Source of the DNA: a virus
IMG/VR virus record: IMGVR_UViG_3300044796_000657
Span: 366,230-430,229 of that record
Reading direction: 5' to 3' (one strand)
DNA: 64,000 nt
This document shows, in pieces, positions 17,191-61,417 of this stretch. The translations under genes and the position numbers were made by a program. How positions within the stretch are numbered: position 1 is the first letter of the stretch; every line of letters starts with the position of its first letter. A model generated the notes under the pieces. The model was not told the DNA's origin. It searched no databases and saw only the letters and a program-made list of their open reading frames with translations.

Positions 17191-17258
17191 GGGTCTACTT
17201 GCGGGCAAGCTCTGGGTTTTGCAAATCCGGCAACGGGGTTCAACTCCCCGTAGATCCA
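17191..17258 (+). tRNA. tRNA-Ala(TGC), compressed D-arm
   Basis: The acceptor stem GGGTCTA pairs with TAGATCC, the anticodon loop is TTTGCAA, and the T-arm is CGGGG-TTCAACT-CCCCG. The D region is only 15 bases (CTTG-CGGG-CAAG plus three), with no T8-A9. CCA is not encoded. Confidence 0.65.
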
Positions 17259-17272
17259 CTAGGAGAAGAAAA

Positions 17273-17467
17273 ATGTTTCACGTATTCAAATGCGACAATG
17301 GAACAGTGATTGCGGTTCATGTTAATAAGTATGGGGACATTAGTGTTTACGATAAGGTGAACCCTAAAGAACTCAAAGAGGTTGGAACATTTGAAGCAGA
17401 TGGTGTTTCAGATTTCAATCACGGCATGAGGCGGGCAATAGAAGTAGCAATGGATGAAGGGGCATAA
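17273..17467 (+). CDS. Hypothetical protein (64 aa)
   Basis: ATG 17273 follows AGGAG. The product (starting MFHVFKCDNGTVIAVHVNKY) is small and beta-rich with an acidic C-terminus. It lies between two tRNA genes and has no recognised function. Confidence 0.6.
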   Translation: MFHVFKCDNGTVIAVHVNKYGDISVYDKVNPKELKEVGTFEADGVSDFNHGMRRAIEVAMDEGA

Positions 17468-17472
17468 AACAT

Positions 17473-17545
17473 GCCTTCGTAACTCAACTGGCAGAGTAGC
17501 GGTCTTTTAAACCGAAGGTTGTGGGTTCGACTCCCACCGATGGCA
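17473..17545 (+). tRNA. tRNA-Lys(TTT)
   Basis: Acceptor GCCTTCG/CGATGGC, D-arm ACTC/GAGT, anticodon loop CTTTTAA and T-arm GTGGG-TTCGACT-CCCAC. The discriminator A is followed by CT. Confidence 0.93.
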
Positions 17546-17597
17546 CTAACATTCAATCGAAAGATTGAAGTTCTTTGACAACTTAGTTTTTATTTTT

Positions 17598-17665
17598 GAA
17601 CCATCCGGCGGATCGGCGCTAAGTTTGCGAAATTTGGATGGCAAGTTCGACTCTTGCATGGTTCA
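17598..17665 (+). tRNA. tRNA-Arg(GCG), compressed D-arm
   Basis: The acceptor GAACCAT/ATGGTTC is perfect; anticodon stem TAAGT/ATTTG with loop TTGCGAA; T-arm GCAAG-TTCGACT-CTTGC. The D region is 15 bases (CCG/CGG stem). GCG is an unusual Arg anticodon in bacteria. Confidence 0.65.
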
Positions 17666-17811
17666 CTTTGACTAACTCTGTGAAGCGGAGCGGTAGCATA
17701 ACCCCTACCGGTTTAATGAGTGTAGGCTGTGGCAGGCGAAATAACGCTAAGGCCAATGACACTTAACCTTTATCGTGACATTAAGATGATGATAAAGTGA
17801 ATGTCGAACAT
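17666..17811. other. Gap without a clear gene
   Basis: This 146-base gap between two tRNA genes has no open frame or complete tRNA. It has GC-rich short inverted segments (AACCCCTACCGG, GGCAGGCG) and may hold processing signals or a decayed tRNA. Confidence 0.3.
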
Positions 17812-17884
17812 GCTCTCATAGCTCAACTGGAAGAGTACCTCGTTTCGACCGAGGCGGTTGTAAGTTCAACTCTTACTGAGAGTA
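17812..17884 (+). tRNA. tRNA-Arg(TCG)
   Basis: Acceptor GCTCTCA/TGAGAGT, anticodon stem CCTCG/CGAGG with loop TTTCGAC, T-stem GTAAG/CTTAC. The discriminator A is followed by CT. Confidence 0.92.
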
Positions 17885-17955
17885 CTAAGGCGACGACTGC
17901 CTTTCAAATGATAGAGCCTTCAACGGTTTAGTGCCTTTTGATAAATGTCGTAATT

Positions 17956-18028
17956 GATCCCGTCGCCAAGAGGCTCAAGGCATCGATCTGCAAAATCGAC
18001 ATCGTAGGTTCAAATCCTACCGGGGTCT
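17956..18028 (+). tRNA. tRNA-Cys(GCA)
   Basis: Acceptor GATCCCG/CGGGGTC, anticodon stem TCGAT/ATCGA with loop CTGCAAA, T-arm GTAGG-TTCAAAT-CCTAC. Confidence 0.92.
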
Positions 18029-18055
18029 CTGTTAACTTTTCAACTAGGAATAACC

Positions 18056-18271
18056 ATGAACGACATTCAACTTCGAACATTAATCGGTCAAACTGTTGGC
18101 GATGCCGAACTTATTGTAATCGCTAATGGATTTACCCCTATGATTTTTGAAGTTAACGAAATCAGAATTAGTTTGGGTTATTCAGCCAATGTGGTAACAT
18201 TAGAACATCAAGACAACATTGTCGTCGGTGCGTACACACAAGCTACCATTGACAGCCAGTACAGGAAATAA
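18056..18271 (+). CDS. I78-type inhibitor-like small protein
   Basis: This 71-aa protein starts MNDIQLRTLIGQTVGDAELI. The IGQTVGDAE segment, followed later by NVVTLEHQDNIVV, fits the pattern of peptidase inhibitor I78/potato-inhibitor-like folds (a Gly-x-Thr helix start, then a strand with Asn-Val and an inhibitory loop). The protein at 30455 has a stronger version. Call is tentative. Confidence 0.5.
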   Translation: MNDIQLRTLIGQTVGDAELIVIANGFTPMIFEVNEIRISLGYSANVVTLEHQDNIVVGAYTQATIDSQYRK

Positions 18272-18277
18272 CATAAT

Positions 18278-18350
18278 GCCACCGTAGCTCAATTGGCAGA
18301 GCAAGTGTCTCTTAAACACGAGGTTGTGGGTTCGACTCCCGCCGATGGCA
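18278..18350 (+). tRNA. tRNA-Lys(CTT)
   Basis: Acceptor GCCACCG/CGATGGC (one mismatch), loop CTCTTAA, T-arm GTGGG-TTCGACT-CCCGC. It closely resembles the Lys(TTT) gene at 17473, so the two probably arose by duplication. Confidence 0.92.
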
Positions 18351-18370
18351 CTCAACACAAGAGGTTAACA

Positions 18371-19045
18371 ATGTGGGATTTAGAAACGATCAAAAGGATC
18401 AATAAAATCGCACTAGCAAAAGGTAGAAAATCTATGCTTCCTCAAGAAAACGTTTCGGTAGTTGACAAAATTTTGGCATCTACCGAAAAAGCAACCAAAG
18501 GTTATTCCAAGCAAGATAAGGCTTTGGTTTGCTTAATGGCTAAGAATGGATTCTTGAAAGCGTTTTTGGCAACTGCTTCGCTCAAAGAGAAAAGTCTTTG
18601 GCATAAGATTGTTTACAACCTTTTGATGAACGACGTTTATCCGTACATTGAAGAAATGGGCTTTGAAAGATTATACGCTGACACTATTCCCGATTTGATG
18701 AAAGATGATGTTCAAGACATCGCATTTTTGAGATTGCTCAAACTCATCAATGCACAACAAGCTCATCAAATGGTGCGGGATAGTTGGTATCTTGGCGACA
18801 GTCATCAGGCATTGTTCGCCTTGAAGTTAAACGACGATGCCGGTGATGATGAACTTTTGGAAATCATCAAAACCGTTATCGCAGGTAGCGGCAAAGTAGT
18901 CGCTGATTATTATGGTGGAAAAGCTGCTGCTGCTAATAGCTTGTTGGGTCAAACGATCAAGCGAGCAAAAGAAGCAGGCAAGAATACAGACCCGACAAAG
19001 ACCAAAGAGTTAATTGTTAAAACCTTAGATGAGACAAAACCATGA
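18371..19045 (+). CDS. TROVE/vWA-like or helical hypothetical protein (224 aa)
   Basis: I start this at ATG 18371 (MWDLETIKRINKIALAKGRK). It is mostly alpha-helical, with repeats of helical pairs. Segments such as LKLINAQQAHQMVRDSW and LLEIIKTVIAGSGKVVADYYGGK suggest a solenoid. No known motif is certain and the function is unknown. It overlaps the next gene by ATGA. Confidence 0.65.
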   Translation: MWDLETIKRINKIALAKGRKSMLPQENVSVVDKILASTEKATKGYSKQDKALVCLMAKNGFLKAFLATASLKEKSLWHKIVYNLLMNDVYPYIEEMGFERLYADTIPDLMKDDVQDIAFLRLLKLINAQQAHQMVRDSWYLGDSHQALFALKLNDDAGDDELLEIIKTVIAGSGKVVADYYGGKAAAANSLLGQTIKRAKEAGKNTDPTKTKELIVKTLDETKP

Positions 19046-19237: not shown

Positions 19238-19307
19238 AGGACGTATTGCGTGGGAGTAACATCGAACTCCAAATCCGAATGAGACGGTTCGAATCCGTCA
19301 CGTCCTA
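19238..19307 (+). tRNA. tRNA-Trp(CCA), short D-arm
   Basis: Acceptor AGGACGT/ACGTCCT is perfect, anticodon loop CTCCAAA, T-arm GACGG-TTCGAAT-CCGTC. The D-arm TTGC-GTGGGA-GTAA follows the acceptor with a single linker base. Confidence 0.8.
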
Positions 19308-19323
19308 CTTAGAAAAGAGGAAA

Positions 19324-21114: not shown

Positions 21115-21188
21115 CGGGCGGTAGCTCAATTTGGTAGAGCGCCTGGTTTGGGACCAGGAGGTTGCAGGTTCAATTCCTGTCCGCCCGA
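21115..21188 (+). tRNA. tRNA-Pro(TGG)
   Basis: Acceptor CGGGCGG/CCGCCCG perfect, anticodon stem CCTGG/CCAGG with loop TTTGGGA, D-arm GCTC/GAGC, and T-arm GCAGG-TTCAATT-CCTGT. Confidence 0.95.
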
Positions 21189-21190
21189 CT

Positions 21191-21526: not shown

Positions 21527-21600
21527 GGCTCGTTCGTCTACGTTGGCTAGGACCGTTGTTTTTCAGGCAACAGAAGGCGGATCGTCACCGCCACGAGTCA
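21527..21600 (+). tRNA. tRNA-Glu(TTC)
   Basis: Acceptor GGCTCGT/ACGAGTC, anticodon stem GTTGT/GCAAC with loop TTTTCAG, T-arm GGCGG-ATCGTCA-CCGCC. Confidence 0.93.
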
Positions 21601-23055: not shown

Positions 23056-23126
23056 CGGCCCGTAGCACAATGGTAGTGCAAAGTTCTGATAAAGCTGAGA
23101 CAAAGGTTCAATTCCTTTCGGGCCGA
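23056..23126 (+). tRNA. tRNA-Ile(GAT)
   Basis: Acceptor CGGCCCG/CGGGCCG perfect, D-arm GCAC/GTGC, loop CTGATAA, T-arm AAAGG-TTCAATT-CCTTT. Confidence 0.9.
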
Positions 23127-24580: not shown

Positions 24581-24651
24581 GCGGAATTGGCATATCGGTT
24601 GTGCTCCAGCCTTCCAAGCTGGCCAGACGGGTTCGACTCCCGTATCCCGCT
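24581..24651 (+). tRNA. tRNA-Gly(TCC)
   Basis: Acceptor GCGGAAT/ATCCCGC (one mismatch), anticodon stem CCAGC/GCTGG with loop CTTCCAA, T-arm ACGGG-TTCGACT-CCCGT. It starts at the base after the HNH stop. Confidence 0.93.
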
Positions 24652-24653
24652 CT

Positions 24654-24741: not shown

Positions 24742-24832
24742 ATGGCCGAGGGGTCTAAGCCCCCCATAAACTAGGTAGCGATCCCTAAATTCTGGGACGA
24801 CTTGCTCCGAGTGCCTATGCTGATCAAATTGT
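24742..24832 (+). other. tRNA-like 5' remnant (class II style) and gap
   Basis: ATGGCCGAGGGGTCTAAGCC resembles the D-arm of Leu/Ser tRNAs, but no T-arm or 3' acceptor follows. It reads as a fragment. Confidence 0.35.
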
Positions 24833-24905
24833 ACGGGCTTAGAGAAACGGTTATCTCACAACCCTCATAAGGTTGAAATAGGTGGTTCGACTCCATCAGT
24901 CCGCA
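24833..24905 (+). tRNA. tRNA-Met(CAT), initiator-like
   Basis: Acceptor ACGGGCT/AGTCCGC with an A1:C72 mismatch, D-stem GAGA/TCTC giving A11:U24, anticodon stem CAACC/GGTTG with loop CTCATAA, T-arm GGTGG-TTCGACT-CCATC. The 1:72 mismatch and A11:U24 are initiator features; the three G-C pairs of initiator stems are absent. Confidence 0.88.
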
Positions 24906-24934
24906 TTGATTTTGTAAATTAAATATGATACTAT
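24906..24934 (+). promoter_or_regulatory. Sigma70-like promoter
   Basis: TTGATT and TACTAT with a 17-base spacer, 24 bases before the ATG at 24959. Confidence 0.45.
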
Positions 24935-25310: not shown

Positions 25311-25382
25311 TGCCTTATAGCTCAACGGTAGAGCGGCGTGCTGTTAACACGAAGGTTGAAGGTTCAAATCCTTCTAGGGCAG
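25311..25382 (+). tRNA. tRNA-Asn(GTT)
   Basis: Acceptor TGCCTTA/TAGGGCA, D-arm GCTC/GAGC, anticodon loop CTGTTAA, T-arm GAAGG-TTCAAAT-CCTTC, discriminator G. Confidence 0.93.
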
Positions 25383-25422
25383 CTTGGTTTGTATTTTTTG
25401 GAAACTCTGTCTAAAGGTCATC

Positions 25423-26579: not shown

Positions 26580-26615
26580 CTATGGTGTTACTTTGGCTCT
26601 AAGAACCTTTGCGGT

Positions 26616-27305
26616 TTGCGTCCTACGGGTCGCCTTCATATCGGTCACTACTTCTCGGTAATCTTGCCGGGTCGTGATGGGGCTGAAGTCCTCATAGCCA
26701 ATTATCACGCTCCGCAAGAAACCAACTTGGAGGAGCTTGTTAAAGTTCTCAACAAATTCGGTGTAAACCAAATCAGAATGCAGCGTGATGTATTCAATGC
26801 CGAACTTTACTTCCGCCTTCTCTCAATTGCCGGTTTTGGCGATTTAGCCAGAATGCCGCAATTCAAATCGGCTGATGAAGACAAACAAACTGGTCAACTA
26901 CTCACCTATCCAGTCTTGATGACACACGATGTCGTCGGCTATGAGAACGTGTTGGTAGGTGAAGATCAGAAGGTGCATTTGGAATACGCTCGTAGGCTAA
27001 TTCGCAAATACAACAAAACCTTTAATGAAGAAGTTGTTTTGCCTCGTCCGATGATTGTTGGCGGGAAAGTTAAGGACTTGCGGAAGCCGACTGAAAAGAT
27101 GAGCAAGTCGTCACCTGATGGTTGTTTGTTCCTTGACGATACGCCCGACGATATTCGTACAAAATTGAAGGCAGCAACCACGACACCGGAAGGGATAGAG
27201 AACCTTTCTACATTGTACACTCATTTTGTTGGGCCTACAGTGCCTTCTATGAATTCTGAGCTTAAGTCTCAGTTGGCAGATGCTTTGATTGAGGCTTTTA
27301 AATAA
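26616..27305 (+). CDS. trpS: TrpRS-like class I aminoacyl-tRNA synthetase, short form
   Basis: The frame has the TrpRS signature RPTGRLHIGHY with the HIGH box near residues 8-11 and KMSKS at 161-165, with MTHDVVGYENVLVGEDQ between them. At about 229 residues it is about 100 short of usual TrpRS; the C-terminal anticodon-binding helices are reduced. Within its own frame only TTG 26616 can start it, leaving no residues before the first conserved motif. A +1 shift from ATG 26582 at CTC-TAA would add 11 residues. Partner to the tRNA-Trp at 19238. Confidence 0.85.
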   Translation: MRPTGRLHIGHYFSVILPGRDGAEVLIANYHAPQETNLEELVKVLNKFGVNQIRMQRDVFNAELYFRLLSIAGFGDLARMPQFKSADEDKQTGQLLTYPVLMTHDVVGYENVLVGEDQKVHLEYARRLIRKYNKTFNEEVVLPRPMIVGGKVKDLRKPTEKMSKSSPDGCLFLDDTPDDIRTKLKAATTTPEGIENLSTLYTHFVGPTVPSMNSELKSQLADALIEAFK

Positions 27306-27584: not shown

Positions 27585-28310
27585 ATGGAAGCGTTGTATG
27601 ACAAAAATGGCTTAATGTTTTATTCGGAGCGGGAAGTCAAGTTGCGGGAACAGTTCCGTGATTACTTTGCGGATCGAATGAGGGAAACGTTGTTAGCGAC
27701 GAATCCTATGTGGCGGTTTTTGATGGTGGAAGCACCTCTGTTAACGCCCAACAAACACATCAACAAGAATTACACTGCCGAAGATGTATTCGTGTGTGAC
27801 GATCTAACCTTAAGGCCGGAAACGACGCCGGGTACTTATCAGTGGATTCGTTCCAAGTTTGATGACAGCAACAGTGGTTTTCGTCCCCCGATTTGCGTTT
27901 GGCAATACGGCAAGAGTTTTCGGCAAGAACAGGATCAAGTATCAAAGCATTGCCGGTTCAAAGAGTTTTACCAGCAGGAATTCCAGTGCGTCTTTACGTC
28001 GGATACTGCGAATGATTATCACACGGTTTTACAAAAACCGGTTGAAAAGATGATTCGTGATATGATTGGCTTGCCGACTCGGTTGGTGGTTAGTGATCGG
28101 TTGCCGGATTACAGCAAGAGTACAATGGATATCGAAGTAGACAACGGCGACAAGTGGATGGAAGTTTGTAGTATGAGCCTGCGAACCGATTTTCCCGGTA
28201 CGGTCAGTTTCACGACCAAAACGAAGGTTGTGGAAAGGGATCTGTTGGTTGCGGAGGTTGCCATCGGTTTAGATCGGTGTGTTTACAATTTCCTGCAAAG
28301 GGTAGATTAA
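27585..28310 (+). CDS. Compact GlyRS-like class II aminoacyl-tRNA synthetase
   Basis: This 241-aa protein is a class II catalytic core. LRPETTPGTYQWI matches the GlyRS LRPETAQG segment, FRQEQDQ plus RFKEFYQQEFQC is motif 2, and the late GLDRCVYNF fits motif 3. There is no anticodon-binding domain, which normally gives GlyRS over 400 residues. It may aminoacylate a phage tRNA such as Gly(TCC) without reading the anticodon, or act on another acceptor. Own promoter upstream. Confidence 0.75.
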   Translation: MEALYDKNGLMFYSEREVKLREQFRDYFADRMRETLLATNPMWRFLMVEAPLLTPNKHINKNYTAEDVFVCDDLTLRPETTPGTYQWIRSKFDDSNSGFRPPICVWQYGKSFRQEQDQVSKHCRFKEFYQQEFQCVFTSDTANDYHTVLQKPVEKMIRDMIGLPTRLVVSDRLPDYSKSTMDIEVDNGDKWMEVCSMSLRTDFPGTVSFTTKTKVVERDLLVAEVAIGLDRCVYNFLQRVD

Positions 28311-28579: not shown

Positions 28580-28807
28580 ATGTGTTTAGACTTTTTAGCC
28601 TTTTGTGTTGTTCTTTTCCTTTTGCTAAGTGTAACAGGACGACCGCACGATCAAAAGAATGATGCTCTTTTCCCGAAACCAAAACCTGTGTCGCCCCGCA
28701 AAGGTCGCAGATTGGAACGAGAGTTATTTCAATGGGTGCGTATAAACTCAATGCGGTTTCACCATTGGCTTTGTGGAATTTTGATGCGATGTCGTCTAGG
28801 CCGGTAG
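28580..28807 (+). CDS. Membrane-anchored basic protein (75 aa)
   Basis: An N-terminal hydrophobic helix (FLAFCVVLFLLLSV) is followed by a Lys/Arg-rich part. The 3' end runs 23 bases into tRNA-Gln(CTG), so the C-terminus is encoded by tRNA sequence. Function unknown. Confidence 0.55.
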   Translation: MCLDFLAFCVVLFLLLSVTGRPHDQKNDALFPKPKPVSPRKGRRLERELFQWVRINSMRFHHWLCGILMRCRLGR

Positions 28808-28857
28808 GACAACTGTCTCTGAAGCAGTTTACGAAGGTTCAAATCCTTCCGTCGCAA
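28785..28857 (+). tRNA. tRNA-Gln(CTG)
   Basis: Acceptor TGCGATG/CGTCGCA, anticodon stem ACTGT/GCAGT with loop CTCTGAA, T-arm GAAGG-TTCAAAT-CCTTC. Confidence 0.93.
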
Positions 28858-28884
28858 CTTTTTACTTAACTAAATAAACTAATC

Positions 28885-29121: not shown

Positions 29122-29194
29122 TGGGGTTTCGTCTAATCTGGTAGGACAACTGTCTTTGGAACAGTCTGTGAAGGTTCAAATCCTTCAACCCCAA
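29122..29194 (+). tRNA. tRNA-Gln(TTG)
   Basis: Acceptor TGGGGTT/AACCCCA perfect, loop CTTTGGA, T-arm GAAGG-TTCAAAT-CCTTC. Close relative of the Gln(CTG) gene. Confidence 0.93.
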
Positions 29195-29614: not shown

Positions 29615-29688
29615 GGCAACGTGGTGTAGTGGTTTCTGCATGTCTGGTTGTCAACCAGTTGGTGCGAGTTCGATTCTCGTCGTTGTCG
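29615..29688 (+). tRNA. tRNA-Asp(GTC)
   Basis: Acceptor GGCAACG/CGTTGTC, anticodon stem TCTGG/CCAGT with loop TTGTCAA, T-arm GCGAG-TTCGATT-CTCGT. Confidence 0.92.
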
Positions 29689-30361: not shown

Positions 30362-30434
30362 GGTGGATATGGTGTAGTGGTCTGCACAAATGTTTGTGAA
30401 GCAAAAGGTGCGAGTTCGATCCTCGTTATCCACC
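30362..30434 (+). tRNA. tRNA-His(GTG)
   Basis: Acceptor GTGGATA/TATCCAC plus an extra G at -1 opposite C73, the His identity feature. Loop TTGTGAA on a weak anticodon stem; T-arm GCGAG-TTCGATC-CTCGT. Confidence 0.9.
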
Positions 30435-30454
30435 CTTTTTTATAGAGAGAAATC

Positions 30455-30889: not shown

Positions 30890-30996
30890 CTGGTTGTAGT
30901 TTATCGACGGTTAAAATTACAATTAGGGAAAACGTGACTAATCCAAGTTATGTTGCCCATATAATTGAGAAACGGGTTCAAATCCCGTCAGCCAGA
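30890..30996 (+). tRNA. Oversized tRNA (107 nt), possibly Gly(GCC)
   Basis: Acceptor CTGGTTG/CAGCCAG is perfect, D-arm GTTT/AAAT and T-arm ACGGG-TTCAAAT-CCCGT are good. The core is about 32 bases too long, with an extra hairpin ATTAG/CTAAT. The best anticodon arm is TTATG-TTGCCCA-TATAA (GCC). Another folding is CAATT/AATTG with a 38-base loop. Either an intron-like insertion or an extra arm. Confidence 0.55.
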
Positions 30997-33056: not shown

Positions 33057-33137
33057 GGATCTGCTTACTAAGTGGGATTAGTACCCGGCTGTAACCCGGT
33101 TGCCAAGTGCTAAGGAGTTCAATTCTTCACAGATCCA
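33057..33137 (+). tRNA. tRNA-Tyr(GTA)
   Basis: Acceptor GGATCTG/CAGATCC perfect, anticodon stem CCGG/CCGG with loop CTGTAAC, long variable arm, T-stem GGAG/CTTC. Starts at the base after the preceding stop. Confidence 0.88.
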
Positions 33138-33644: not shown

Positions 33645-33718
33645 GGGCCTATAGTTCAACCGGGGAGAACATCCAACAGGAATGTTGGAAGGTCGAGGTT
33701 CAAATCCTCATAAGCCCA
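33645..33718 (+). tRNA. tRNA with irregular anticodon loop
   Basis: Acceptor GGGCCTA/TAAGCCC, D-arm GTTC/GAAC and T-arm CGAGG-TTCAAAT-CCTCA are normal. The anticodon arm is TCCAAC-AGGAAT-GTTGGA, i.e. a 6- or 8-base loop with no T33, so identity is unclear. Confidence 0.7.
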
Positions 33719-33722
33719 CTTT

Positions 33723-33793
33723 GCTTTCATAGTATAATGGTATTACCCTAATTCGGTAAATTAGAAACCTGCGTTCGATTCGCAGTGAAAGCT
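33723..33793 (+). tRNA. tRNA-Thr(GGT), C33
   Basis: Acceptor GCTTTCA/TGAAAGC perfect, stem CTAAT/ATTAG with loop TCGGTAA, so C precedes the GGT anticodon. T-arm CTGCG-TTCGATT-CGCAG. Confidence 0.88.
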
Positions 33794-33798
33794 CTCTC

Positions 33799-33869
33799 GC
33801 TTCCATAGTATATTGGTATTATTCTTCCTTCGTACAGAAGAGATAGTGGTTCGATTCCACTTGGAAGCC
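33799..33869 (+). tRNA. tRNA-Thr(CGT)
   Basis: Acceptor GCTTCCA/TGGAAGC perfect, anticodon loop TTCGTAC on CTTCC/AGAAG (one mismatch), T-arm AGTGG-TTCGATT-CCACT. A sibling of the preceding gene. Confidence 0.85.
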
Positions 33870-33881
33870 CTTGGTTAATTT

Positions 33882-33954
33882 GCCTCAGCAGCACAAAGGC
33901 AGGTGCACCGCTCTTGTAAGGCGGAACTTGTGGGTTCGACTCCCACCTGTGGCT
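33882..33954 (+). tRNA. tRNA-Thr(TGT)
   Basis: Acceptor GCCTCAG/CTGTGGC (one mismatch), anticodon stem CCGCT/GGCGG with loop CTTGTAA, T-arm GTGGG-TTCGACT-CCCAC. Confidence 0.92.
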
Positions 33955-33956
33955 CT

Positions 33957-34883: not shown

Positions 34884-35156
34884 ATGGCTCGTCCTCCTGA
34901 ATTTGATAAACACGCAGAATTAATTACTGATTACATTCGTAAGATGGGACTTTACGGGGTAACGCAAGAAATTCGCTTTGCTTTAACTGCTATTTTTGTC
35001 AACGATATTAATGATGATGAATTGTTTCATAAAGTAATGAAAGCATTGGAATCTTTCCAAGACGAATTAGGTAAAATTCAAGAAGATCGTATGAGTAATA
35101 GGAAAAAAGATCAACCTATTTATCCAATTGGGACAGTTATCGGGACTTTAGCATAA
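34884..35156 (+). CDS. Hypothetical protein between tRNA repeats (90 aa)
   Basis: ATG 34884. Helical, charged (MARPPEFDKHAELITDYIRK at the start). Its 3' end runs into the complete tRNA copy. The flanking direct repeats suggest it came with an insertion or tandem duplication. Function unknown. Confidence 0.6.
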   Translation: MARPPEFDKHAELITDYIRKMGLYGVTQEIRFALTAIFVNDINDDELFHKVMKALESFQDELGKIQEDRMSNRKKDQPIYPIGTVIGTLA

Positions 35157-35165
35157 CGGCAGTGT
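35141..35165 (+). repeat. 25-bp direct repeat (copy 2)
   Basis: Exact copy of 34822-34846, inside the complete tRNA gene. Confidence 0.9.
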
Positions 35166-35223
35166 GTTCCGGTAAGACCTACGTGGTTCCGGAATGGTAA
35201 GAGTTCGACTCTCTTAAGTTCCA
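35142..35223 (+). tRNA. Oversized tRNA (82 nt), identity unclear
   Basis: Acceptor GGGACTT/AAGTTCC, D-stem GCAT/GTGT and T-arm AAGAG-TTCGACT-CTCTT are good. The anticodon region is TTCCGG/CCGGAA closing a 16-base loop with an inner ACC/GGT helix, 9 bases more than normal. Confidence 0.55.
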
Positions 35224-35244
35224 CTAGAACGAATAGATACATCT

Positions 35245-35448
35245 ATGAAAGATAATCTTGTGGCAAATGCCGTCGTTCCTACTATCACACTCAAACAGTT
35301 AAAGCTTAAGAATAATTATGATGACTCTCGTAAGCATCTTGGGCAATACGCAGAAGGTTTTTGGTTTCAGGACAACGTGTACAGATTGCCTTTTTTGAGA
35401 CAGTCGTACGAGGGGAATTATGTTTCCCCGACATTAAATGGAAAATAG
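35245..35448 (+). CDS. Hypothetical protein (67 aa)
   Basis: ATG 35245. Starts MKDNLVANAVVPTITLKQLK. Its last 9 bases overlap the start of tRNA-Ser(GCT). Function unknown. Confidence 0.6.
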   Translation: MKDNLVANAVVPTITLKQLKLKNNYDDSRKHLGQYAEGFWFQDNVYRLPFLRQSYEGNYVSPTLNGK

Positions 35449-35526: not shown

Positions 35527-35529
35527 CTT

Positions 35530-35616: not shown

Positions 35617-35638
35617 CTCATATTTAATAGGAGTACAG

Positions 35639-44107: not shown

Positions 44108-44569
44108 ATGGAAGTTCACATCAGATCGCATAAAGAAGCATTGGCAATGATTGTTGCCAAGCCGAATACGTACGATGTGATTTTCATCAATGAGCCGTAT
44201 TTCGGTGTTGATGCGATATTTAAACAAAAATCTCGCAGCTTAACAACTCACTTTTTCCATGATCTTGAAAGACCTATCAAGGGAAGAAGGATGCCAAAAT
44301 ACAACGACGTTAAGGCAATGTTGGATTTTGTAGATAAGAAATCCAACATTCTCTGCTGTTGTCCAAGTGGAATTTCTCGCAGCGCAGCCATTGGGTATGC
44401 TGTTACGTGTATGAAATTTTACAACCCCGAAGCGGCCTTGAAAATTTTAGATTATGATAAGCATATTCCCAATGTATTAATTTCACAATACGCAAGTGAA
44501 ATTTTACAAAAACCAGACATACTCGGTCGCATCAATCGGTTTAGAGAAGGTGTTTTTTCCACCCTATAA
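44108..44569 (+). CDS. Tyrosine/dual-specificity phosphatase-like protein
   Basis: This 153-aa protein has the signature C85-x5-R91 in CPSGISRSAAIGYA, preceded by hydrophobic residues as in PTPs. An earlier Asp (DVIFINEP) could be the general acid. It might remove phosphate from host proteins. ATG 44108. Confidence 0.75.
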   Translation: MEVHIRSHKEALAMIVAKPNTYDVIFINEPYFGVDAIFKQKSRSLTTHFFHDLERPIKGRRMPKYNDVKAMLDFVDKKSNILCCCPSGISRSAAIGYAVTCMKFYNPEAALKILDYDKHIPNVLISQYASEILQKPDILGRINRFREGVFSTL

Positions 44570-47000: not shown

Positions 47001-49838
47001 ATGAATCTTGACCCTAACACTCGTGAACAAGAAGTTCTCAAATTGTGGAAGGGTCAAGATACGTTTCAGGCGATTCAATTTCGTCGGAAATCGGCTAAGC
47101 CTTTTGTGATGTTTGAAGGCCCGCCAACCGCCAATGGCAAACCCGGCATCCATCACGTTCTCACCCGCACATTTAAAGATGCAATCGCACGCTTCCAAAC
47201 CATGAAAGGCCGTTACGTTGAACGACGGGCCGGATGGGATGAACACGGATTGCCAGTAGAATTAGAAGTCCAAAAAGCCTACGGACTCCCCACCAAAGAA
47301 TCCATTCTCGATTACGGTGTTGCTGAATTTAATAACAACTGCCAAGTCAGCACCCGCAACTTCATCGCCGATTGGGAAAAATTAACCCACCGAATGGGTT
47401 ATTGGCTCGATTTTGAAAACGCCTATAACACATCAGATCCTAGTTATATCAACAAAGTTTGGACAGTCTTAGATAATCTCATGGCTAATGATGAGATTTA
47501 TCAAGACTATAAAATCGTGCCTTGGGCTTGCGATTCCCAAACCGTCTTATCCAATTCAGAATTAGAACAAGGTTATAAAGAGGTTGAACACAATACGATG
47601 ACGGTTAAATTCCGCATCGATGATGACACCAATACCTATCTGATCGCATGGACAACTACCCCTTGGACATTGCCAGCTAATATGGCTTTAGCAGTCAATC
47701 CTTCGTTAACATATTACGAAACCATTGACTCAGAGGGGTGCCATTGCATTAGCCTCAAAAAAACCGAACCCTCATTACCAATCAGTGGCCACAAACTTGT
47801 CGGCCTAAAATATCGTCACCCATTTATCTCTGGTAAGGTCTGTCAAGTCTATGGCGACAACTTCGTTAGAGGCGATACAGGAACCGGAATTGTACATATC
47901 GCACCTGCTTTTGGCATTGATGATTACGCTCTTTGGAAAAAGAGTATGGCCCTTGAGCCAATCATCTGTCACGTAAATCCGGATGGTTCTTTCAACGCAG
48001 CAGCTCCAGACTTGCTGCGAGGCATCAATTTGTTGGACAGAAATTTCAAAACTGTTAACTCTTTAATTCATGCCCACTTGACTTCGGCAGGAGCAAACTA
48101 CGAAAATCAATCCTTCAAGGATTCGGGATTTACACATCAATACCCGCACAATTGGCGAACGGGTAAGCCTCTTATCTATATGTTTAGACATAGTTGGTTC
48201 GTGAAAACAACCGGCCTCAAACTTCGTCAAGTTAACAAAGAAGAAGTGACTTGGTATCCTAGTAATATCAAAGAAGGTAGATTTGGACAATGGCTTGATG
48301 GTGGCAAAGATTGGGCAATTTCCCGTGAACGATTTTGGGGTACACCGTTGCCCTTTTATCGTGATGCTGACAATAACGTCTCTTTCCAAGTCCCTCAATA
48401 TTATCACAAGCCGGGTTCTGATACGCCCATCGTCAAAGATAGAGTAATCTGGAAACGAACCTCAGAAGTTTTGGACTGCTGGTTCGATAGTGGCGCAATG
48501 CCGTTTGCCGCTTATGAGAAGTTCCAGCCAGCCGATGTAATTTGTGAGGGCATCGATCAAACCCGTGGGTGGTTCTATTCGTTAATGGTTATTGGTGTTG
48601 CTCTCACAGAACATACGCCATTCAAGGCAGCGATTTGCCTCGGCCATGTTCTGGATAAGAACGGCGTGAAAATGAGCAAGTCCAAAAAGAATGCTGTTGA
48701 TCCTTGGGAAGTTTTTGAGCGAGAAGGCGCTGATGCCGTTCGTTGGTACATGCTCAAAACACCAATCGGACAATCTCTTTTGTGGAATGAAGCCGAAGTT
48801 AAAAAAGTCAATCAAACATTCTTCAATCGCTTGCTTAGCTCTCTTGACTTTTACGAGCAACAACAAAACCCCGACAAGCCTCATCGATCTAGTAATGGGT
48901 CAAAAGATGCTACGGATATTTGGATGATGGCACGCCTACACAGTGTTGTTAACAGCGTATCCCAATATTTGGAAGATTATGAATTTGCCAAAGCGATTGA
49001 AGCCATTGAGCTTTTTACCAACGATCTTTCTAATGTTTGGATTAGAACAAATCGATCACGATTCCTTGCTGATGGTGCCCATGTTCCTAACGGTATTTTG
49101 AAAAACTGCCTAAAAACACTAACATTGTTAATTGCACCGTTGGCGCCGATGTTGGCTGAACATGTCTGGTATCGTTTGTGTCCAGAAAACATTGTTTATG
49201 GAAGCATGGGTTCGGTACATGCTACCGATTGGCCTAAACCAGAAGATAATACGTGGGACGCATTCTCAAAAAATATTGTTATTCTTGAAGCCATGAAAGA
49301 AGCTCGTCAAGTTATCACTGAAGGCTTGAAACAGAGAGACAAGCGGAATATCCGTTTGAGGCAACCGATCAAAGCAGTGCGGGTGCCTCGTAACATCAAT
49401 CCACAACTCATTCAATTCGTCAAGACGGAGTTGAATGTTAAAGACATCATCGTTGATGCTAAGGGGGAATCCGTGGAAATGGATTTCAACCTTACGGATG
49501 AACTTGTAGCGGAAGGTATGGCAAGAGATTTGATGCGGGCTATTCAAGTTCGCCGCAAAGATTTAGGTTTGAAGCGTGGTGAACCAATTCGTATCGTATT
49601 GGAAGTCGATAAAAAGACCAGATCCATGCTTGAACCACATATGAGTGAGTTGATGTTAAGTGTGACTTGTGGTGATCTGCGATACAAAGAAGTCGCAGAT
49701 ACAGCATCGCCGATTGTAATGGAAGTCACAAAAATGGAACCGGCTAACCCAGATGGCTATAAGGAATTCGGAAAAGCCACAACAAAACTGACTTCTGCTG
49801 AAATCGCCAAAGTGATATTGACAAATCGTGTCGGTTAA
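47001..49838 (+). CDS. ileS: Isoleucyl-tRNA synthetase
   Basis: This 945-aa class I enzyme has FEGPPTANGKPGIHHVL (HIGH-type, about 38-54), RAGWDEHGLPVE, the editing-domain segment TTTPWTLPANMALAVNP, ISRERFWGTPLP, WFDSGAMP and KMSKSKKNAVDPWEVFE (about 557). All are IleRS features rather than Val or Leu. It is slightly short of the about 1,000-residue norm, mainly at the C-terminus, which lacks the usual zinc Cys pairs. Two Ile tRNAs, GAT (23056) and TAT (58221), are present. Start ATG 47001 after AAAGGTAAG. Confidence 0.95.
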   Translation: MNLDPNTREQEVLKLWKGQDTFQAIQFRRKSAKPFVMFEGPPTANGKPGIHHVLTRTFKDAIARFQTMKGRYVERRAGWDEHGLPVELEVQKAYGLPTKESILDYGVAEFNNNCQVSTRNFIADWEKLTHRMGYWLDFENAYNTSDPSYINKVWTVLDNLMANDEIYQDYKIVPWACDSQTVLSNSELEQGYKEVEHNTMTVKFRIDDDTNTYLIAWTTTPWTLPANMALAVNPSLTYYETIDSEGCHCISLKKTEPSLPISGHKLVGLKYRHPFISGKVCQVYGDNFVRGDTGTGIVHIAPAFGIDDYALWKKSMALEPIICHVNPDGSFNAAAPDLLRGINLLDRNFKTVNSLIHAHLTSAGANYENQSFKDSGFTHQYPHNWRTGKPLIYMFRHSWFVKTTGLKLRQVNKEEVTWYPSNIKEGRFGQWLDGGKDWAISRERFWGTPLPFYRDADNNVSFQVPQYYHKPGSDTPIVKDRVIWKRTSEVLDCWFDSGAMPFAAYEKFQPADVICEGIDQTRGWFYSLMVIGVALTEHTPFKAAICLGHVLDKNGVKMSKSKKNAVDPWEVFEREGADAVRWYMLKTPIGQSLLWNEAEVKKVNQTFFNRLLSSLDFYEQQQNPDKPHRSSNGSKDATDIWMMARLHSVVNSVSQYLEDYEFAKAIEAIELFTNDLSNVWIRTNRSRFLADGAHVPNGILKNCLKTLTLLIAPLAPMLAEHVWYRLCPENIVYGSMGSVHATDWPKPEDNTWDAFSKNIVILEAMKEARQVITEGLKQRDKRNIRLRQPIKAVRVPRNINPQLIQFVKTELNVKDIIVDAKGESVEMDFNLTDELVAEGMARDLMRAIQVRRKDLGLKRGEPIRIVLEVDKKTRSMLEPHMSELMLSVTCGDLRYKEVADTASPIVMEVTKMEPANPDGYKEFGKATTKLTSAEIAKVILTNRVG

Positions 49839-49876: not shown

Positions 49877-51313
49877 ATGAAAAAGGCAGAATTAGTAGAA
49901 GCAGGCATTCCCGTGAATTGCCATGCTGCTGCCATTAAGGTCATTCAAGATGGCTTCCGGCACAAAATCTTCCCTTCCAACAAAGGGGCACGGGAAGCTT
50001 TAACGAGAGTGGCCGCTGCGCCTGAAATGCACCTCGGCGCAGACGACTTCTACCGAGAATTGGCAAGCACCATCATTGCCACCCGCAAACAGCACGTTGA
50101 AGACGAAGCTCTTTACGCCAAAAACAGCATTGGTACAAGCCAATCGTTTGCCTCTTGGGGTGCCGACATTGAACAAGGTGCCATTGATCAAATGCAAAAT
50201 GCGGTATCCCTGCCAGTTTCAGTGGTCGGCGCCATGATGCCCGATGCCCACAGTGGGTACGGTTTGCCCGTAGGCGGTGTTCTGGCCACATACGACAGCA
50301 TCGTTCCTTATGCGGTAGGCGTCGATATTGGTTGCCGGATGCGTTTTACGTTCACCGATATCGATCCATCACTCCTCAAGGATTCTCACGACAAGAAGGC
50401 GACTCCGCTCTGTAAAGCCTTGCGTGAAGGAACGGTTTTTGGCGTCGGCGGTCAACACGAAATTAAGATGAACCATCCAGTCATGGACAAGGATTGGAAC
50501 ATCACGGCTGTCACAAAAGCCGCCAAAGATAAGGCATGGCGGCAGTTGGGAACCAGCGGTTCCGGCAATCACTTCGCCGAATGGGGCATTGTGACGTTAA
50601 CTCAAAAAGAATTCGGTTTAGAGCCGGGGAAATACGTCGCTCTCATGACTCACAGCGGCTCCCGTGGTTCGGGTTCTGATGTTTGTAGTTACTATACCGA
50701 CGTTGCCGCTTCCAAGCTGCCAAAGGCTTATGAGAAATTCGGCAAAATGAAATTGGCGTGGTTGCCAATGGCTTCCGAAGCTGGCCAAGAGTATTGGGCA
50801 GCTATGAACCTTATGGGTGATTATGCCGCTGCCAATCACTACGTCATTCACGAATTGGTTCTCAAGAATATGGGAGCAACGGCCCTTAAAGTGATTGAGA
50901 ACCACCACAATTTCGCATGGAAAGAAGATTACAAGGGAACCGAAGTGTACGTTCACCGTAAAGGTGCTACACCTGCCGGAAAGGGCGTACTGGGTATTAT
51001 CCCCGGTAGTATGGCCACTTCCGCATTCGTCGTACGAGGCAAGGGCAATCCTGAAAGCTTGATGTCGGCTTCTCACGGTGCCGGGCGGGCAATGAGCCGC
51101 ACCAAAGCTAAGGAACAGTTTAACTGGAGCACATGGAAGAGCCAAATCCAAAATGCCGGTGTACGACTATTGAGCGGCGGGATTGATGAGGTTCCCGGTG
51201 CTTACAAAGACATTCACAAAGTCATGGCTCAACAAACCGACTTGATTGATGTTGTGGCAGAATTCATGCCCAAAATCGTCCTCATGGGTCAAGATGGTCG
51301 GAGCGAAGATTAA
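49877..51313 (+). CDS. rtcB: RtcB RNA ligase
   Basis: This 478-aa protein has the RtcB motifs: VGVDIGCRM (Cys153, Mn site), LGTSGSGNHFAEWG (His), LMTHSGSRGSGSD and SHGAGRAMSRTKAK with the His that takes GMP near residue 400. It joins RNA ends with 2',3'-cyclic phosphate and 5'-OH, as made by anticodon nucleases or tRNA splicing. Phages use it or similar enzymes to repair tRNAs. GC content is higher than in its neighbours. It overlaps the next gene by 1 base. Confidence 0.96.
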   Translation: MKKAELVEAGIPVNCHAAAIKVIQDGFRHKIFPSNKGAREALTRVAAAPEMHLGADDFYRELASTIIATRKQHVEDEALYAKNSIGTSQSFASWGADIEQGAIDQMQNAVSLPVSVVGAMMPDAHSGYGLPVGGVLATYDSIVPYAVGVDIGCRMRFTFTDIDPSLLKDSHDKKATPLCKALREGTVFGVGGQHEIKMNHPVMDKDWNITAVTKAAKDKAWRQLGTSGSGNHFAEWGIVTLTQKEFGLEPGKYVALMTHSGSRGSGSDVCSYYTDVAASKLPKAYEKFGKMKLAWLPMASEAGQEYWAAMNLMGDYAAANHYVIHELVLKNMGATALKVIENHHNFAWKEDYKGTEVYVHRKGATPAGKGVLGIIPGSMATSAFVVRGKGNPESLMSASHGAGRAMSRTKAKEQFNWSTWKSQIQNAGVRLLSGGIDEVPGAYKDIHKVMAQQTDLIDVVAEFMPKIVLMGQDGRSED

Positions 51314-56631: not shown

Positions 56632-56854
56632 ATTTTTATGCATAGGTGGCCCACTAGATAAGGTGCGAGCAACCAGCGAAGAATTAGCAATACGGATGCC
56701 AGAATATAACTCAGTGTATACTTCTTATAACTGTAGTTATCGCATTCGTCGTCCCAATAAAAAAATGATCGAGAATGCCAAAGAATCTGGCAGACCGGTG
56801 TTAACTTCCGCAATTATGGTTCACAATAGTGTGTTCCAAGTAAAGCCCATGTGA
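56621..56854 (+). CDS. Hypothetical protein (77 aa)
   Basis: ATG 56621. Starts MATKFLCIGGPLDKVRATSE; its last 10 bases overlap tRNA-Leu(GAG). Function unknown. Confidence 0.65.
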   Translation: MATKFLCIGGPLDKVRATSEELAIRMPEYNSVYTSYNCSYRIRRPNKKMIENAKESGRPVLTSAIMVHNSVFQVKPM

Positions 56855-56928
56855 TGGAACTGGCAGACTTCACGGTTCGAGAAGCCGTGGCTCTTTTGAG
56901 CGTGCAGGTTCGAAGCCTGTCATGGGCA
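56845..56928 (+). tRNA. tRNA-Leu(GAG), C33
   Basis: Acceptor GCCCATG/CATGGGC perfect, anticodon stem ACGGT/GCCGT with loop TCGAGAA, long variable arm GCTC/GAGC, T-arm GCAGG-TTCGAAG-CCTGT. Confidence 0.88.
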
Positions 56929-56957
56929 CTGTTTTCCCCTTTTATCGGAGTATGATT

Positions 56958-57700: not shown

Positions 57701-57774
57701 GTCGGGGTAGCCCAACGGCAGGAGGCGACACACTCAAAATGTGTACAGTGTGGGTTCGAATCCCACCCTCGATA
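57701..57774 (+). tRNA. tRNA-Leu(CAA), short variable loop
   Basis: Acceptor GTCGGGG/CCTCGAT with wobble pairs, stem ACACA/TGTGT with loop CTCAAAA, T-arm GTGGG-TTCGAAT-CCCAC. The variable region is only 5 bases, unlike usual Leu tRNAs. Confidence 0.85.
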
Positions 57775-58220: not shown

Positions 58221-58296
58221 GGTCTCGTAACATAGTCTGGTCTAATGTGCCGATCTTATAAGTCGGATATCGAAAGTTCAAATCTTTCCGAGACTA
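58221..58296 (+). tRNA. tRNA-Ile(TAT)
   Basis: Acceptor GGTCTCG/CGAGACT, D-stem ACAT/ATGT, anticodon stem CCGAT/GTCGG with loop CTTATAA, T-arm GAAAG-TTCAAAT-CTTTC. Reads AUA directly. Confidence 0.92.
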
Positions 58297-58297
58297 C

Positions 58298-58369
58298 TGT
58301 CGTTTAGCTGAGTGGTAAAGCGTCTGTACGACATGCAGAAGATCATCGGTTCAATTCCGGTAACGACAA
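58298..58369 (+). tRNA. tRNA-Val(GAC), C33
   Basis: Acceptor TGTCGTT/AACGACA perfect, stem TCTGT/GCAGA with loop ACGACAT, T-arm ATCGG-TTCAATT-CCGGT. Confidence 0.88.
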
Positions 58370-58373
58370 CTTT

Positions 58374-58445
58374 GGCTCGTTAGTATAACGGATAGTGCGG
58401 TTGTTTCCTAAACGACAAGCAGAGGTTCGACTCCTCTACGGGCTA
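58374..58445 (+). tRNA. tRNA-Arg(CCT)
   Basis: Acceptor GGCTCGT/ACGGGCT, stem GTTGT/ACGAC with loop TTCCTAA, T-arm AGAGG-TTCGACT-CCTCT. Confidence 0.92.
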
Positions 58446-58450
58446 CTTAT

Positions 58451-58526
58451 GCCTTCGTAATGGCCCCGGTTTCTACCCGGAAGGTGCATAACTGGAATTA
58501 TACAGGTTCGACTCCTGTCGAGGGTG
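58451..58526 (+). tRNA. tRNA-like gene, anticodon ambiguous
   Basis: Acceptor GCCTTCG/CGAGGGT and T-arm ACAGG-TTCGACT-CCTGT are good and the total length is normal (76). The core folds as CCGG-TTTCTAC-CCGG (TCT, Arg) or CCGG/CTGG with a loop ending CATAA; neither leaves a normal D-arm. Confidence 0.55.
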
Positions 58527-59842: not shown

Positions 59843-59844
59843 TC

Positions 59845-60015
59845 GTGTTTTTGCCAAAGCCAACATGCGACGAATTCTTGCCAGAAGAAGAACCTAAGCC
59901 CAAACCCAAATTTGATTGGCGAAAGGTTCAAGAAGAAAAATTTAACACCAAAAAAGTTCCGCCTGAAATGTATCTCTCACAAGACGATCAGGGGGAATTT
60001 TCTTTTTGGCGATAA
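59845..60015 (+). CDS. Hypothetical Pro/Lys-rich protein (56 aa)
   Basis: GTG 59845, 2 bases after the PDZ gene. Charged and Pro-rich (EEEPKPKPKFDWRKVQEEKF). Likely disordered; function unknown. Confidence 0.55.
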   Translation: MFLPKPTCDEFLPEEEPKPKPKFDWRKVQEEKFNTKKVPPEMYLSQDDQGEFSFWR

Positions 60016-60033
60016 ATTTTTCCATAATTTCTC

Positions 60034-60062
60034 TTGCTATTTGAAACAGGATGTGATACACT
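60034..60062 (+). promoter_or_regulatory. Sigma70-like promoter
   Basis: TTGCTA and TACACT with a 17-base spacer, 36 bases before the LemA-like gene. Confidence 0.6.
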
Positions 60063-60098
60063 CATTTGGCGTTCACAACTTTCTTTCAAGGGGAAATC

Positions 60099-60701
60099 AT
60101 GTTCGACAAATTCGGAAAATTGGTGGTGTTGGGATGCGGCGGGTTAATTGCGAGCGTTGTAGTCGTCGGCATCATCTTTGGCATCTGGTATTTCGGCACA
60201 TTCAACAAGCAAGCAAGATTCGTCGCTCAAATTTCGGGCGAACAAGACGTATGCAAGATCAGCTACGACAACACATGGAAGGTCATTCAAGAAATGGCCC
60301 AAGTTCCCGATGCCTACAAAGACGGCTTCAAGGAATCATGGGGTGTGATTGTTAACAGCAGTCCTAGCAAAACCGCTGGCCTCGTAAACGCCTACGTCAC
60401 TCGCTTCAACCCCAAATTTGACAGCAAGTTGTATGAAAAGCTTATGGTCACCATCGAGCATCAGCGGAAATCATTCGCAGAAGCCCAAAAGAAGCTGCGG
60501 GCACTGAAAACCGAACACGACGCTTTCCGAACAACCATGCCCGTTGACAGCATGTTGGGCCGAATGCTCTTCGGCACTTTCCCGCCAATCGAAGTCCAAC
60601 TCGTTCTCTCGGAAAAGACCGACAACGCCTTCGAGACCGGTCGAGACGACAAGATCAACGTCTTTGACCGCAAACCCGCCACCGTTCCTACCGCCAGTTG
60701 A
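60099..60701 (+). CDS. LemA-like membrane protein (200 aa)
   Basis: ATG 60099 after AAGGGGA. One N-terminal transmembrane helix (GGLIASVVVVGIIFGIWYFG), then helices with NKQARFVAQISGEQ, NTWKVIQEMAQVPDAYKDGF and IEHQRKSFAEAQKKLR that resemble LemA-type four-helix proteins. GC-rich compared with its neighbours. Function unknown. Confidence 0.6.
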   Translation: MFDKFGKLVVLGCGGLIASVVVVGIIFGIWYFGTFNKQARFVAQISGEQDVCKISYDNTWKVIQEMAQVPDAYKDGFKESWGVIVNSSPSKTAGLVNAYVTRFNPKFDSKLYEKLMVTIEHQRKSFAEAQKKLRALKTEHDAFRTTMPVDSMLGRMLFGTFPPIEVQLVLSEKTDNAFETGRDDKINVFDRKPATVPTAS

Positions 60702-60708
60702 TCCGCCG

Positions 60709-60792
60709 ATGTGGGCAGTATTGATGACTTACGGCGTGACATTTCTAGCCAACGTCGGCATCGTTTTGGGATTTAGTTTGAAGAAAGACTGA
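60709..60792 (+). CDS. Possible small membrane peptide (27 aa)
   Basis: ATG 60709 starts a 27-residue frame with one helix (VTFLANVGIVLGFSLKKD). No ribosome binding site stands out. Confidence 0.4.
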   Translation: MWAVLMTYGVTFLANVGIVLGFSLKKD

Positions 60793-60803
60793 ATAGATAA
60801 TGA

Positions 60804-61190
60804 ATGACTTTCAAAGAATTTATAGCAAAGCATGATATCGACTTTTCGCCAGTCGTTAACTTGATCGATAAGGCTTTGCTATCTATCAAGAGAGTTGAAC
60901 CACAAATCGATCATCCGCTTTGGATGCAATCAAAACAACATCTGAGTGGATATGAGGATGTTGTTCAATTCTTTTACAACAGTTTACATTCATTGCGGGA
61001 ATGGGTGAGCCGAGGCGCTCACAACAAGAAGTTATCTCAGACGATAAAGCCATTGTACAATAAGATTTTGAAAGATGTGTCTAGGCTTGTAGCGAAGAAA
61101 GAAACGCATCCTACGCTTCAACAATTCAATGTACAGAACACTTTTGACTCAATTCAGAAGATGATTCAAGACATAACTTCTAGTGTTTGA
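60804..61190 (+). CDS. Hypothetical helical protein (128 aa)
   Basis: ATG 60804. Helical throughout (SLHSLREWVSRGAHNKKLSQ). The end overlaps the convergent small gene by 25 bases. Function unknown. Confidence 0.65.
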   Translation: MTFKEFIAKHDIDFSPVVNLIDKALLSIKRVEPQIDHPLWMQSKQHLSGYEDVVQFFYNSLHSLREWVSRGAHNKKLSQTIKPLYNKILKDVSRLVAKKETHPTLQQFNVQNTFDSIQKMIQDITSSV

Positions 61191-61324
61191 CTTGGCCTTG
61201 GCTCGTCTGCATATGGATGAACATACCAAGTATGATCACTTACTTGATAAGCCTCAATTTTGTCAAGAAATTGCTCTCGTTCTTCTTCGGTAGCAGATTG
61301 CCACCATTTAATAGCTTCTTCCAT
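61166..61324 (-). CDS. Small hypothetical protein (52 aa)
   Basis: ATG 61324. MEEAIKWWQSATEEEREQFL then WYVHPYADEPRPSQT. It is on the same strand as the following tRNA-Val. Function unknown. Confidence 0.55.
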   Translation of the reverse strand: MEEAIKWWQSATEEEREQFLDKIEAYQVSDHTWYVHPYADEPRPSQTLEVMS

Positions 61325-61344
61325 TTTATCTCTTACGATTTGAG

Positions 61345-61417
61345 TGGGCGTTGAGGGATTCGAACCCCCGGCTCTTTCCGTGTAAAGGAAATACTCTGGC
61401 CTCTGAGTTAAACGCCC
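61345..61417 (-). tRNA. tRNA-Val(TAC)
   Basis: On the minus strand: acceptor GGGCGTT/AACGCCC, stem TTTCC/GGAAA with loop TTTACAC, T-arm CGGGG-GTTCGAA-CCC-type. The only tRNA on this strand. Confidence 0.92.

Follow-up and report, generated by a model that had tools for sequence, protein, structure and literature searches.

Can a phage encode enough of the translation apparatus to decode its own genes independently of its host? This question is raised by the last 64 kb (bases 366230-430229, 64,000 nucleotides; hereafter the window) of the linear 430,229-bp IMG/VR virus record IMGVR_UViG_3300044796_000657. There, a first-pass annotation had proposed about 40 tRNA genes whose anticodons together account for all 20 amino acids and which, with three aminoacyl-tRNA synthetase-like proteins, a peptide deformylase and RtcB, would come close to an independent decoding set. 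The record exceeds 200 kb, carries a terminase large subunit (L017:12501-14165) and a member of the Gp23 capsid family, and is that of a T4-like tailed huge phage. Our analysis leads us to favour, with somewhat better than even confidence, the view that this part of the phage genome is a module for supplying and maintaining tRNAs that work on host ribosomes.

The tRNA gene array

ARAGORN identified 33 tRNA genes in the window (17473 to 61417) and 37 across the whole record, and made no call in any of 20 dinucleotide-preserving shuffles of the window. The Rfam tRNA model placed 25 window genes above its gathering score. Ser(GGA) and Ser(UGA) scored against the tRNA-Sec model only, Leu(GAG) and Trp scored 31.4 and 26.6 bits, and the Tyr and Glu(UUC) genes were unscored by the tRNA model. 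One of the 33 genes, at 33645, has no anticodon. Further tRNA-like genes at 17191-17257, 30890-30996, 58451-58526 and, the weakest, 35142-35224 bring the total to about 37; the large array is real, and the figure of 40 is slightly too high. Program-called tRNAs account for 19 amino acids, and the twentieth, Ala, is accepted on the identity elements of the gene at 17191. These data support the view that a single region of the phage holds anticodons for each of the 20 amino acids. Every anticodon of the first-pass annotation was found, although Ala(UGC) was called by neither program. Four more tRNA genes, Lys(UUU), Arg(UCU), Met(CAU) and Leu(UAA), lie in the record outside the window. Similar arrays are found in related phages: the nearest relative by terminase in the phage collection, LR756511.1 (42% identity), has 60 tRNA matches and LR745206.1 has 61, both including Ile(UAU), and 26 lie within the final 5 kb of a closer IMG/VR fragment, G003 (terminase 64% identity).

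The putative tRNA-Ala(UGC) (17191..17257, plus strand, 67 nt) has a reduced D arm and was recognized by eye; ARAGORN made no call, and the Rfam match was a weak one to mascRNA. Its 7-bp acceptor stem, also read by eye, has G1-C72, G2-C71, G3.U70 and A73, which are conserved in tRNA-Ala outside animal mitochondria (review, PMC9976931). The UGC loop stands on a 6-bp stem, the T arm is good, and the minimum free energy fold keeps the acceptor, anticodon and T stems. In related phages tRNA-Ala(UGC) has the ordinary form, and the gene in the window would therefore be a derived, shortened copy.

By the same standards four genes of the plus strand are degenerate. The short Arg(GCG) gene (17598..17666), doubtful and with a reduced D arm, was called by ARAGORN, has no Rfam match and folds no better than shuffles. 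Glu(UUC) (21527..21600), an ARAGORN call, is doubtful and has an abnormal T loop, AUCGUCA. The short CAU tRNA-like gene at 36971..37038, also doubtful, has a reduced D arm, an ARAGORN call, no Rfam match and a weak fold. The tRNA-like gene at 58451..58526 (Rfam 25.7 bits) shows UCU in its loop by eye, no evident D arm and a weak fold. Such members would be expected if the phage had gained tRNA genes in bulk and kept a partly decaying bank with many relics, an explanation that we consider improbable, since most genes have intact stems and correct discriminators, and random decay would lose the latter. In addition, the odd D arm of tRNA-Trp and the divergence of tRNA-Tyr recur in related phages, with stems that are changed but paired.

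The discriminators are of the bacterial type in most genes, and it is therefore probable that host synthetases charge most of these tRNAs. G73 is found in Asp(GUC) (29615..29688), Asn(GUU) (25311..25383), Ser(GCU) (35440..35527), Ser(GGA) (35530..35617) and Ser(UGA) (42435..42522), U73 in Cys(GCA) (17956..18029) and Gly(UCC) (24581..24652), and C73 with G-1 in the gene in His(GUG) (30363..30435). A73 is found in the Arg, Ile, Leu, Lys, Phe, Pro, Tyr and Val genes. None of the tRNA genes in the window encodes the 3' CCA.

The genes given with coordinates in the preceding paragraph and those listed next are on the plus strand, unless stated, and were called by ARAGORN and matched by Rfam, the latter for Ser(GGA) and Ser(UGA) through the tRNA-Sec model. 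The remaining genes are Lys(UUU) (17473..17546, Rfam 63.8 bits), Arg(UCG) (17812..17885), Lys(CUU) (18278..18351), Pro(UGG) (21115..21189), Ile(GAU) (23056..23126), a CAU tRNA (24832..24906) whose Rfam frame, 24833-24905, leaves A1/C72 unpaired, Gln(CUG) (28785..28858), Gln(UUG) (29122..29194), Thr(GGU) (33723..33794), Thr(CGU) (33799..33870), Thr(UGU) (33882..33955), Glu(CUC) (41603..41674), Phe(GAA) (42543..42614), Leu(GAG) (56845..56929), Leu(CAA) (57701..57774), Val(GAC) (58298..58370), Arg(CCU) (58374..58446) and, on the minus strand, Val(UAC) (61344..61417). The divergent Tyr(GUA) gene (33057..33137, plus strand) was called by ARAGORN and resembles an odd Tyr gene in LR756511. The match at 35142..35224 (plus strand), read as Leu(AAG) with an 11-nt intron by the intron mode of ARAGORN only, is probably spurious or degenerate. 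Leu(CAA) has a short variable loop, and tRNA-Leu genes with short variable loops, in which the usual long arm is absent, were also observed elsewhere (L065 11813-12531, and L048), with up to four anticodons per phage.

At 30890..30996 (plus strand) lies a 107-nt tRNA-like RNA (Rfam 32.4 bits; fold z -3.2) in which a long imperfect hairpin interrupts the anticodon arm or takes its place. The intron mode of ARAGORN reads it as Met(CAU) with a 31-nt intron; C33 and the long imperfect hairpin fit arm replacement as well as an intron-containing tRNA. Two other tRNA-like RNAs with an extra hairpin, of 126-128 nt, were seen in LR756511 (L041 10433-10558 and 12610-12737), and share the motif AGCATACAAACA between the D arm and the anticodon arm.

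Synthetases, codon coverage and tRNA maintenance

Profile matches confirmed the three synthetase-like proteins, the deformylase and RtcB of the first-pass annotation, and at least five synthetases were found in the record. The isoleucyl-tRNA synthetase (IleRS; 47001..49838, plus strand, 945 aa) scores 697.8 bits against TIGR00392 (cut-off 621); its best PDB scores are to Thermus, eukaryotic and MupA-type enzymes, not to the S. aureus type, and no close relative was found in the viral contigs searched. The short tryptophanyl enzyme (TrpRS; 26580..27305, plus strand, a stop-to-stop frame whose start is probably TTG 26616) matches TIGR00233 at 3.3e-26, below the cut-off, and PDB TrpRS at 1.3e-20. 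It has the HIGH-like motif TGRLHIGHY and KMSKS, with little sequence beyond the latter. A 241-aa class II catalytic core resembling glycyl-tRNA synthetase (GlyRS; 27585..28310, plus strand; GlyRS profile 1.2e-13, PDB GlyRS 7e-6) retains motifs 2 and 3, and an anticodon-binding domain was not found in it. Outside the window, where the best 25 families per batch were listed and only proteins of at least 170 aa, we detected a tyrosyl-tRNA synthetase above its profile cut-off and a single-chain, mitochondrial-type phenylalanyl-tRNA synthetase (PheRS) of 341 aa (C1:270235-271260, i.e. L014:10235-11260; TIGR00469 330.7 bits against a cut-off of 258.35), whose C-terminus matches the PheT anticodon domain. 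No close phage relative of this PheRS was found, and many IleRS and PheRS matches in the phage collection appear to be bacterial contaminants or host DNA that lacks annotation.

Codon coverage was estimated from all tRNAs of the record, with Ala and Glu(UUC) included although their genes are doubtful. By standard wobble the tRNAs read 51 of the 61 sense codons, and they read 55 if U34 is also allowed to pair with U. The ten codons left unread by standard wobble (CUA, CUG, CCU, CCC, CGU, CGC, GCU, GCC, GGU and GGC) represent 14% of the phage codons, 60% of its Ala codons and 72% of its Gly codons. Reading of UUA depends on a tRNA from elsewhere in the record, as does any secure reading of AGA. 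The description of the set as close to independent decoding is therefore overstated. That the phage replaces the tRNAs and the charging machinery of the host almost entirely would agree with the anticodons for 20 amino acids, and with the synthetases, deformylases, CCA-like enzyme and RtcB of the record. We regard it as very unlikely, given the ten unread codons and given that no synthetase for 15 amino acids was found among the matches listed. Moreover, two of the five synthetases found, the short TrpRS and the GlyRS core, are reduced and fit badly with full autonomy.

Another view is that the tRNAs only supplement the host for codons that the phage uses more than the host does. The phage, with a GC content of 43%, uses AUA, AGA, UUA and similar codons, and the authors of the XacN1 phage study drew the same conclusion from codon usage (PMC5852040). 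Here codon compensation alone appears possible but rather unlikely, because nearly every codon box is covered instead of a biased subset, the heavily used GCC, GCU, GGC and GGU have no standard-wobble tRNA, and RtcB, Thg1 and the synthetases would be left unexplained.

Further proteins of interest are encoded in the region and in the rest of the record. In the window, on the plus strand, are an RtcB RNA ligase (49877..51313; PF01139 3.3e-90), a peptide deformylase (37541..38056; PF01327 1.9e-12, TIGR00079 below cut-off), a 224-aa protein with a GatB/YqeY tail domain (18371..19045; PF02637 1.2e-9, GatB C-terminus) and, tentatively, a YqeY-like protein (44108..44569; PF09424 2.1e-5 within a concatenated query, no NCBIfam match). 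Elsewhere in the record are a second deformylase, a Thg1 family member and a CCA-nucleotidyltransferase-like protein (C1:71531-72226). No ribosomal genes were found among the matches listed. We also observed an Rsr/Ro60-like RNA-binding protein, below its cut-off (C1:242054-243667, i.e. L013:2054-3667), in this phage, which has RtcB and an RNA ligase family protein as well.

Two of the five synthetases have a matching unusual tRNA in the window. The first is IleRS, a possible partner of tRNA-Ile(UAU) (58221..58297, plus strand; ARAGORN and Rfam), a tRNA that is charged by the Mycoplasma mobile IleRS and that E. coli cannot charge efficiently (review, PMC4810244). The second is the short TrpRS with tRNA-Trp(CCA) (19238..19308, plus strand; ARAGORN and Rfam), which has A1-U72 and carries A73 in place of G73, the bacterial Trp identity determinant (identity review, PMC9976931). 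The homologue in G003 has the same odd D arm but G73, and the tRNA-Trp genes of LR756511 and LR745206 also have G73; no PF00579 synthetase over cut-off was found in LR756511, LR745206 or G003, the last being a 69-kb fragment only. The co-occurrence of phage synthetases with tRNAs that bacterial enzymes may charge poorly is suggestive, with two cases.

Under the supply and maintenance model that we favour, the tRNAs would be transcribed from the phage and receive their 3' CCA post-transcriptionally. Host synthetases would charge most of them for use on host ribosomes, and they would sustain phage translation if the host pool is mismatched, degraded or cleaved by defences. RtcB, the CCA-adding-enzyme-like protein and the Thg1-like protein would maintain or repair them, and the phage-made synthetases would serve the altered tRNAs, IleRS acting on Ile(UAU) and the short TrpRS on the A73 tRNA-Trp. 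That phage tRNAs counter tRNA-cleaving defences is a published hypothesis (PMC10264068), with which RtcB, the CCA-like enzyme and Thg1 would fit. Several points weigh against the model. At 231 aa the CCA-like enzyme is short, and its score is below the cut-off; it is possible that neither the short TrpRS nor the GlyRS core charges tRNA at all. The Trp and Ile pairs are two cases, the Tyr, Phe and Gly tRNAs having no clear identity change, and LR756511 has tRNA-Ile(UAU) yet no tRNA-synt_1 (class I Ile/Leu/Val/Met synthetase) match. The pairs make testable the question of why phages add synthetases of their own, and predict partly orthogonal phage tRNA/synthetase pairs that would survive if the host lost one of its enzymes or the lysidine modification.

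Anticodon-less tRNA-like RNAs

The gene without an anticodon (33645..33719, plus strand; Rfam 46.9 bits, cloverleaf fold), reported by ARAGORN as tRNA-???(ggaa), has in the position of the anticodon arm a 7-bp stem, UCCAACA/UGUUGGA, capped by a GGAA (GNRA) tetraloop, and lacks the 7-nt anticodon loop. A similar RNA in LR756511 (L041 11914-11989) has an 8-bp stem of different sequence with a GAAA cap. Others, likewise typed tRNA-??? by ARAGORN, were found in L068, L073, L074, L076, L077, L079, L081, L085, L086, L087, L170, L222 and L287. We consider it likely that these genes represent an undescribed family of phage RNAs. Its members have full tRNA bodies with acceptor, D and T arms and often an encoded CCA, and a perfect 7-8-bp GNRA-capped stem replaces the anticodon arm; such RNAs are unable to decode, and their role must lie elsewhere. 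Amber-suppressor tRNAs are over-represented at their loci.

Two scans of viral contigs, which required a tRNA D arm, a GNRA sequence at a fixed place and AGGTC, and which did not require pairing, returned 20 distinct loci. In eleven of these the stem is completely paired (7/7 or 8/8) and in a twelfth it reaches 7/8, the chance of a full stem being about (6/16)^7, or about 0.001, per match. When all retrieved loci were scanned by structure, 18 sequences emerged, including one evident false match and two near-duplicates. In a set of 16 RNAs that includes those of the window and of LR756511, all 112 stem cells are paired, against a mean of 61 and a maximum of 84 in 2000 arm swaps; 5-6 pair types occur at 6 of the 7 stem positions, and the stems are unrelated in sequence. 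As the 16 RNAs were picked for pairing, the unselected figure is that of the pairing-blind scans. When the GNRA requirement was dropped, the pattern found 35 tRNA-like loci with a T arm. In seven of these a stem of 6 bp or more carries a tetraloop, which is GNRA in five, UUCG in one and CAAG in one; others have loops of 6-8 nt.

A CUA tRNA is present at 9 of 16 GNRA loci, compared with 15 of 177 other viral tRNA loci (p = 1e-5, the loci not all being independent). The phage of the window has no CUA tRNA (amber suppressor) despite its GNRA RNA. A blastn search with ten members of the family gave no match in cultured phages, and a length-matched scan of bacterial genomes gave at least eight tetraloop-armed tRNA-like sequences, with no GNRA among the matches listed. 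No description of anticodon-less GNRA tRNAs in phages was found in the literature searched; a theta-ribozyme paper mentions 'undetermined' tRNAs and does not analyse them (PMC10879173). Two known kinds of RNA were considered and rejected for the gene at 33645-33719: there is no Rfam Y-RNA or YrlA match in the window at the gathering score or in 16800-62000 at E up to 1, and the bacterial tRNA-Other has an anticodon.

If the RNA is made, its role is certainly a non-decoding one; perhaps these RNAs engage a tRNA-binding enzyme or a defence protein, as its ligand or as a decoy. If the family is real, current tools file a conserved non-decoding phage RNA as an 'undetermined tRNA', and the family gives a fresh starting point for learning how phages deal with the tRNA biology of the host and with the suppression of stop codons.

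Other genes and comparison with known systems

Several other genes of the phage were noted. NAD synthase and nicotinate-nucleotide adenylyltransferase (52750-54741 and 31273-31836 of the window) form, with NAPRTase in the record, a near-complete NAD salvage route. The window also has a glutamate/leucine dehydrogenase-family enzyme (44550-45863), an ART-PolyVal protein with an ADP-ribosyltransferase domain (22191-22772) and, beside tRNA genes, two small, repetitive proteins rich in Lys, Met and Arg with alike cysteine-containing ends (33208-33600 and 56958-57248). Among the proteins of C1:1-160000 of the record are FolD, cobalamin adenosyltransferase and, unusually for a phage, a member of the serpin family (6e-96).

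Among known phages, XacN1, with 56 tRNAs for 20 amino acids, is alike in being a jumbo phage with such a set near its genome end, together with Thg1, a glutamyl-tRNA amidotransferase-like protein and a CCA enzyme (PMC5852040). It differs in that its set lies in 66-kb direct terminal repeats and includes two amber suppressors, whereas the phage of the window has no suppressor; no 30-mers are common to the first and last 30 kb of our record, which may be incomplete or collapsed. XacN1 gave neither a PF00579 nor a PheRS match. LR756511 differs by having a CUA tRNA and no tRNA-synt_1, PF00579 or PheRS match, and compared with LR756511 and LR745206 only the phage of the window has the A73 tRNA-Trp and the reduced tRNA-Ala.

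The presence of a UAU tRNA-Ile of the unmodified type and an IleRS in one genome recalls Mycoplasma mobile; the phage differs in supplying tRNA-Ile(GAU) and many other tRNAs as well. Its PheRS resembles FARS2, the mitochondrial monomeric PheRS, in combining a catalytic core and a ferredoxin-fold anticodon domain in one chain of 341 aa, but is encoded in a phage record, outside the window. The anticodon-less RNA may be compared with the tRNA-Other of Bacillus cereus, which carries a Trp anticodon (PMC3399842), and with YrlA RNAs, both being bacterial tRNA-like RNAs that are not ordinary decoders; the phage RNA differs from them in having a GNRA-capped stem in place of the anticodon and no YrlA match in Rfam. 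Huge phages, LR756511.1 and LR745206.1 among them, have been described with up to 67 tRNAs and 15 synthetases (Al-Shayeb et al. 2020, PMC7162821). The set for 20 amino acids described here extends this known pattern, and what differs in the present phage is its combination of synthetases and its anticodon-less RNA.

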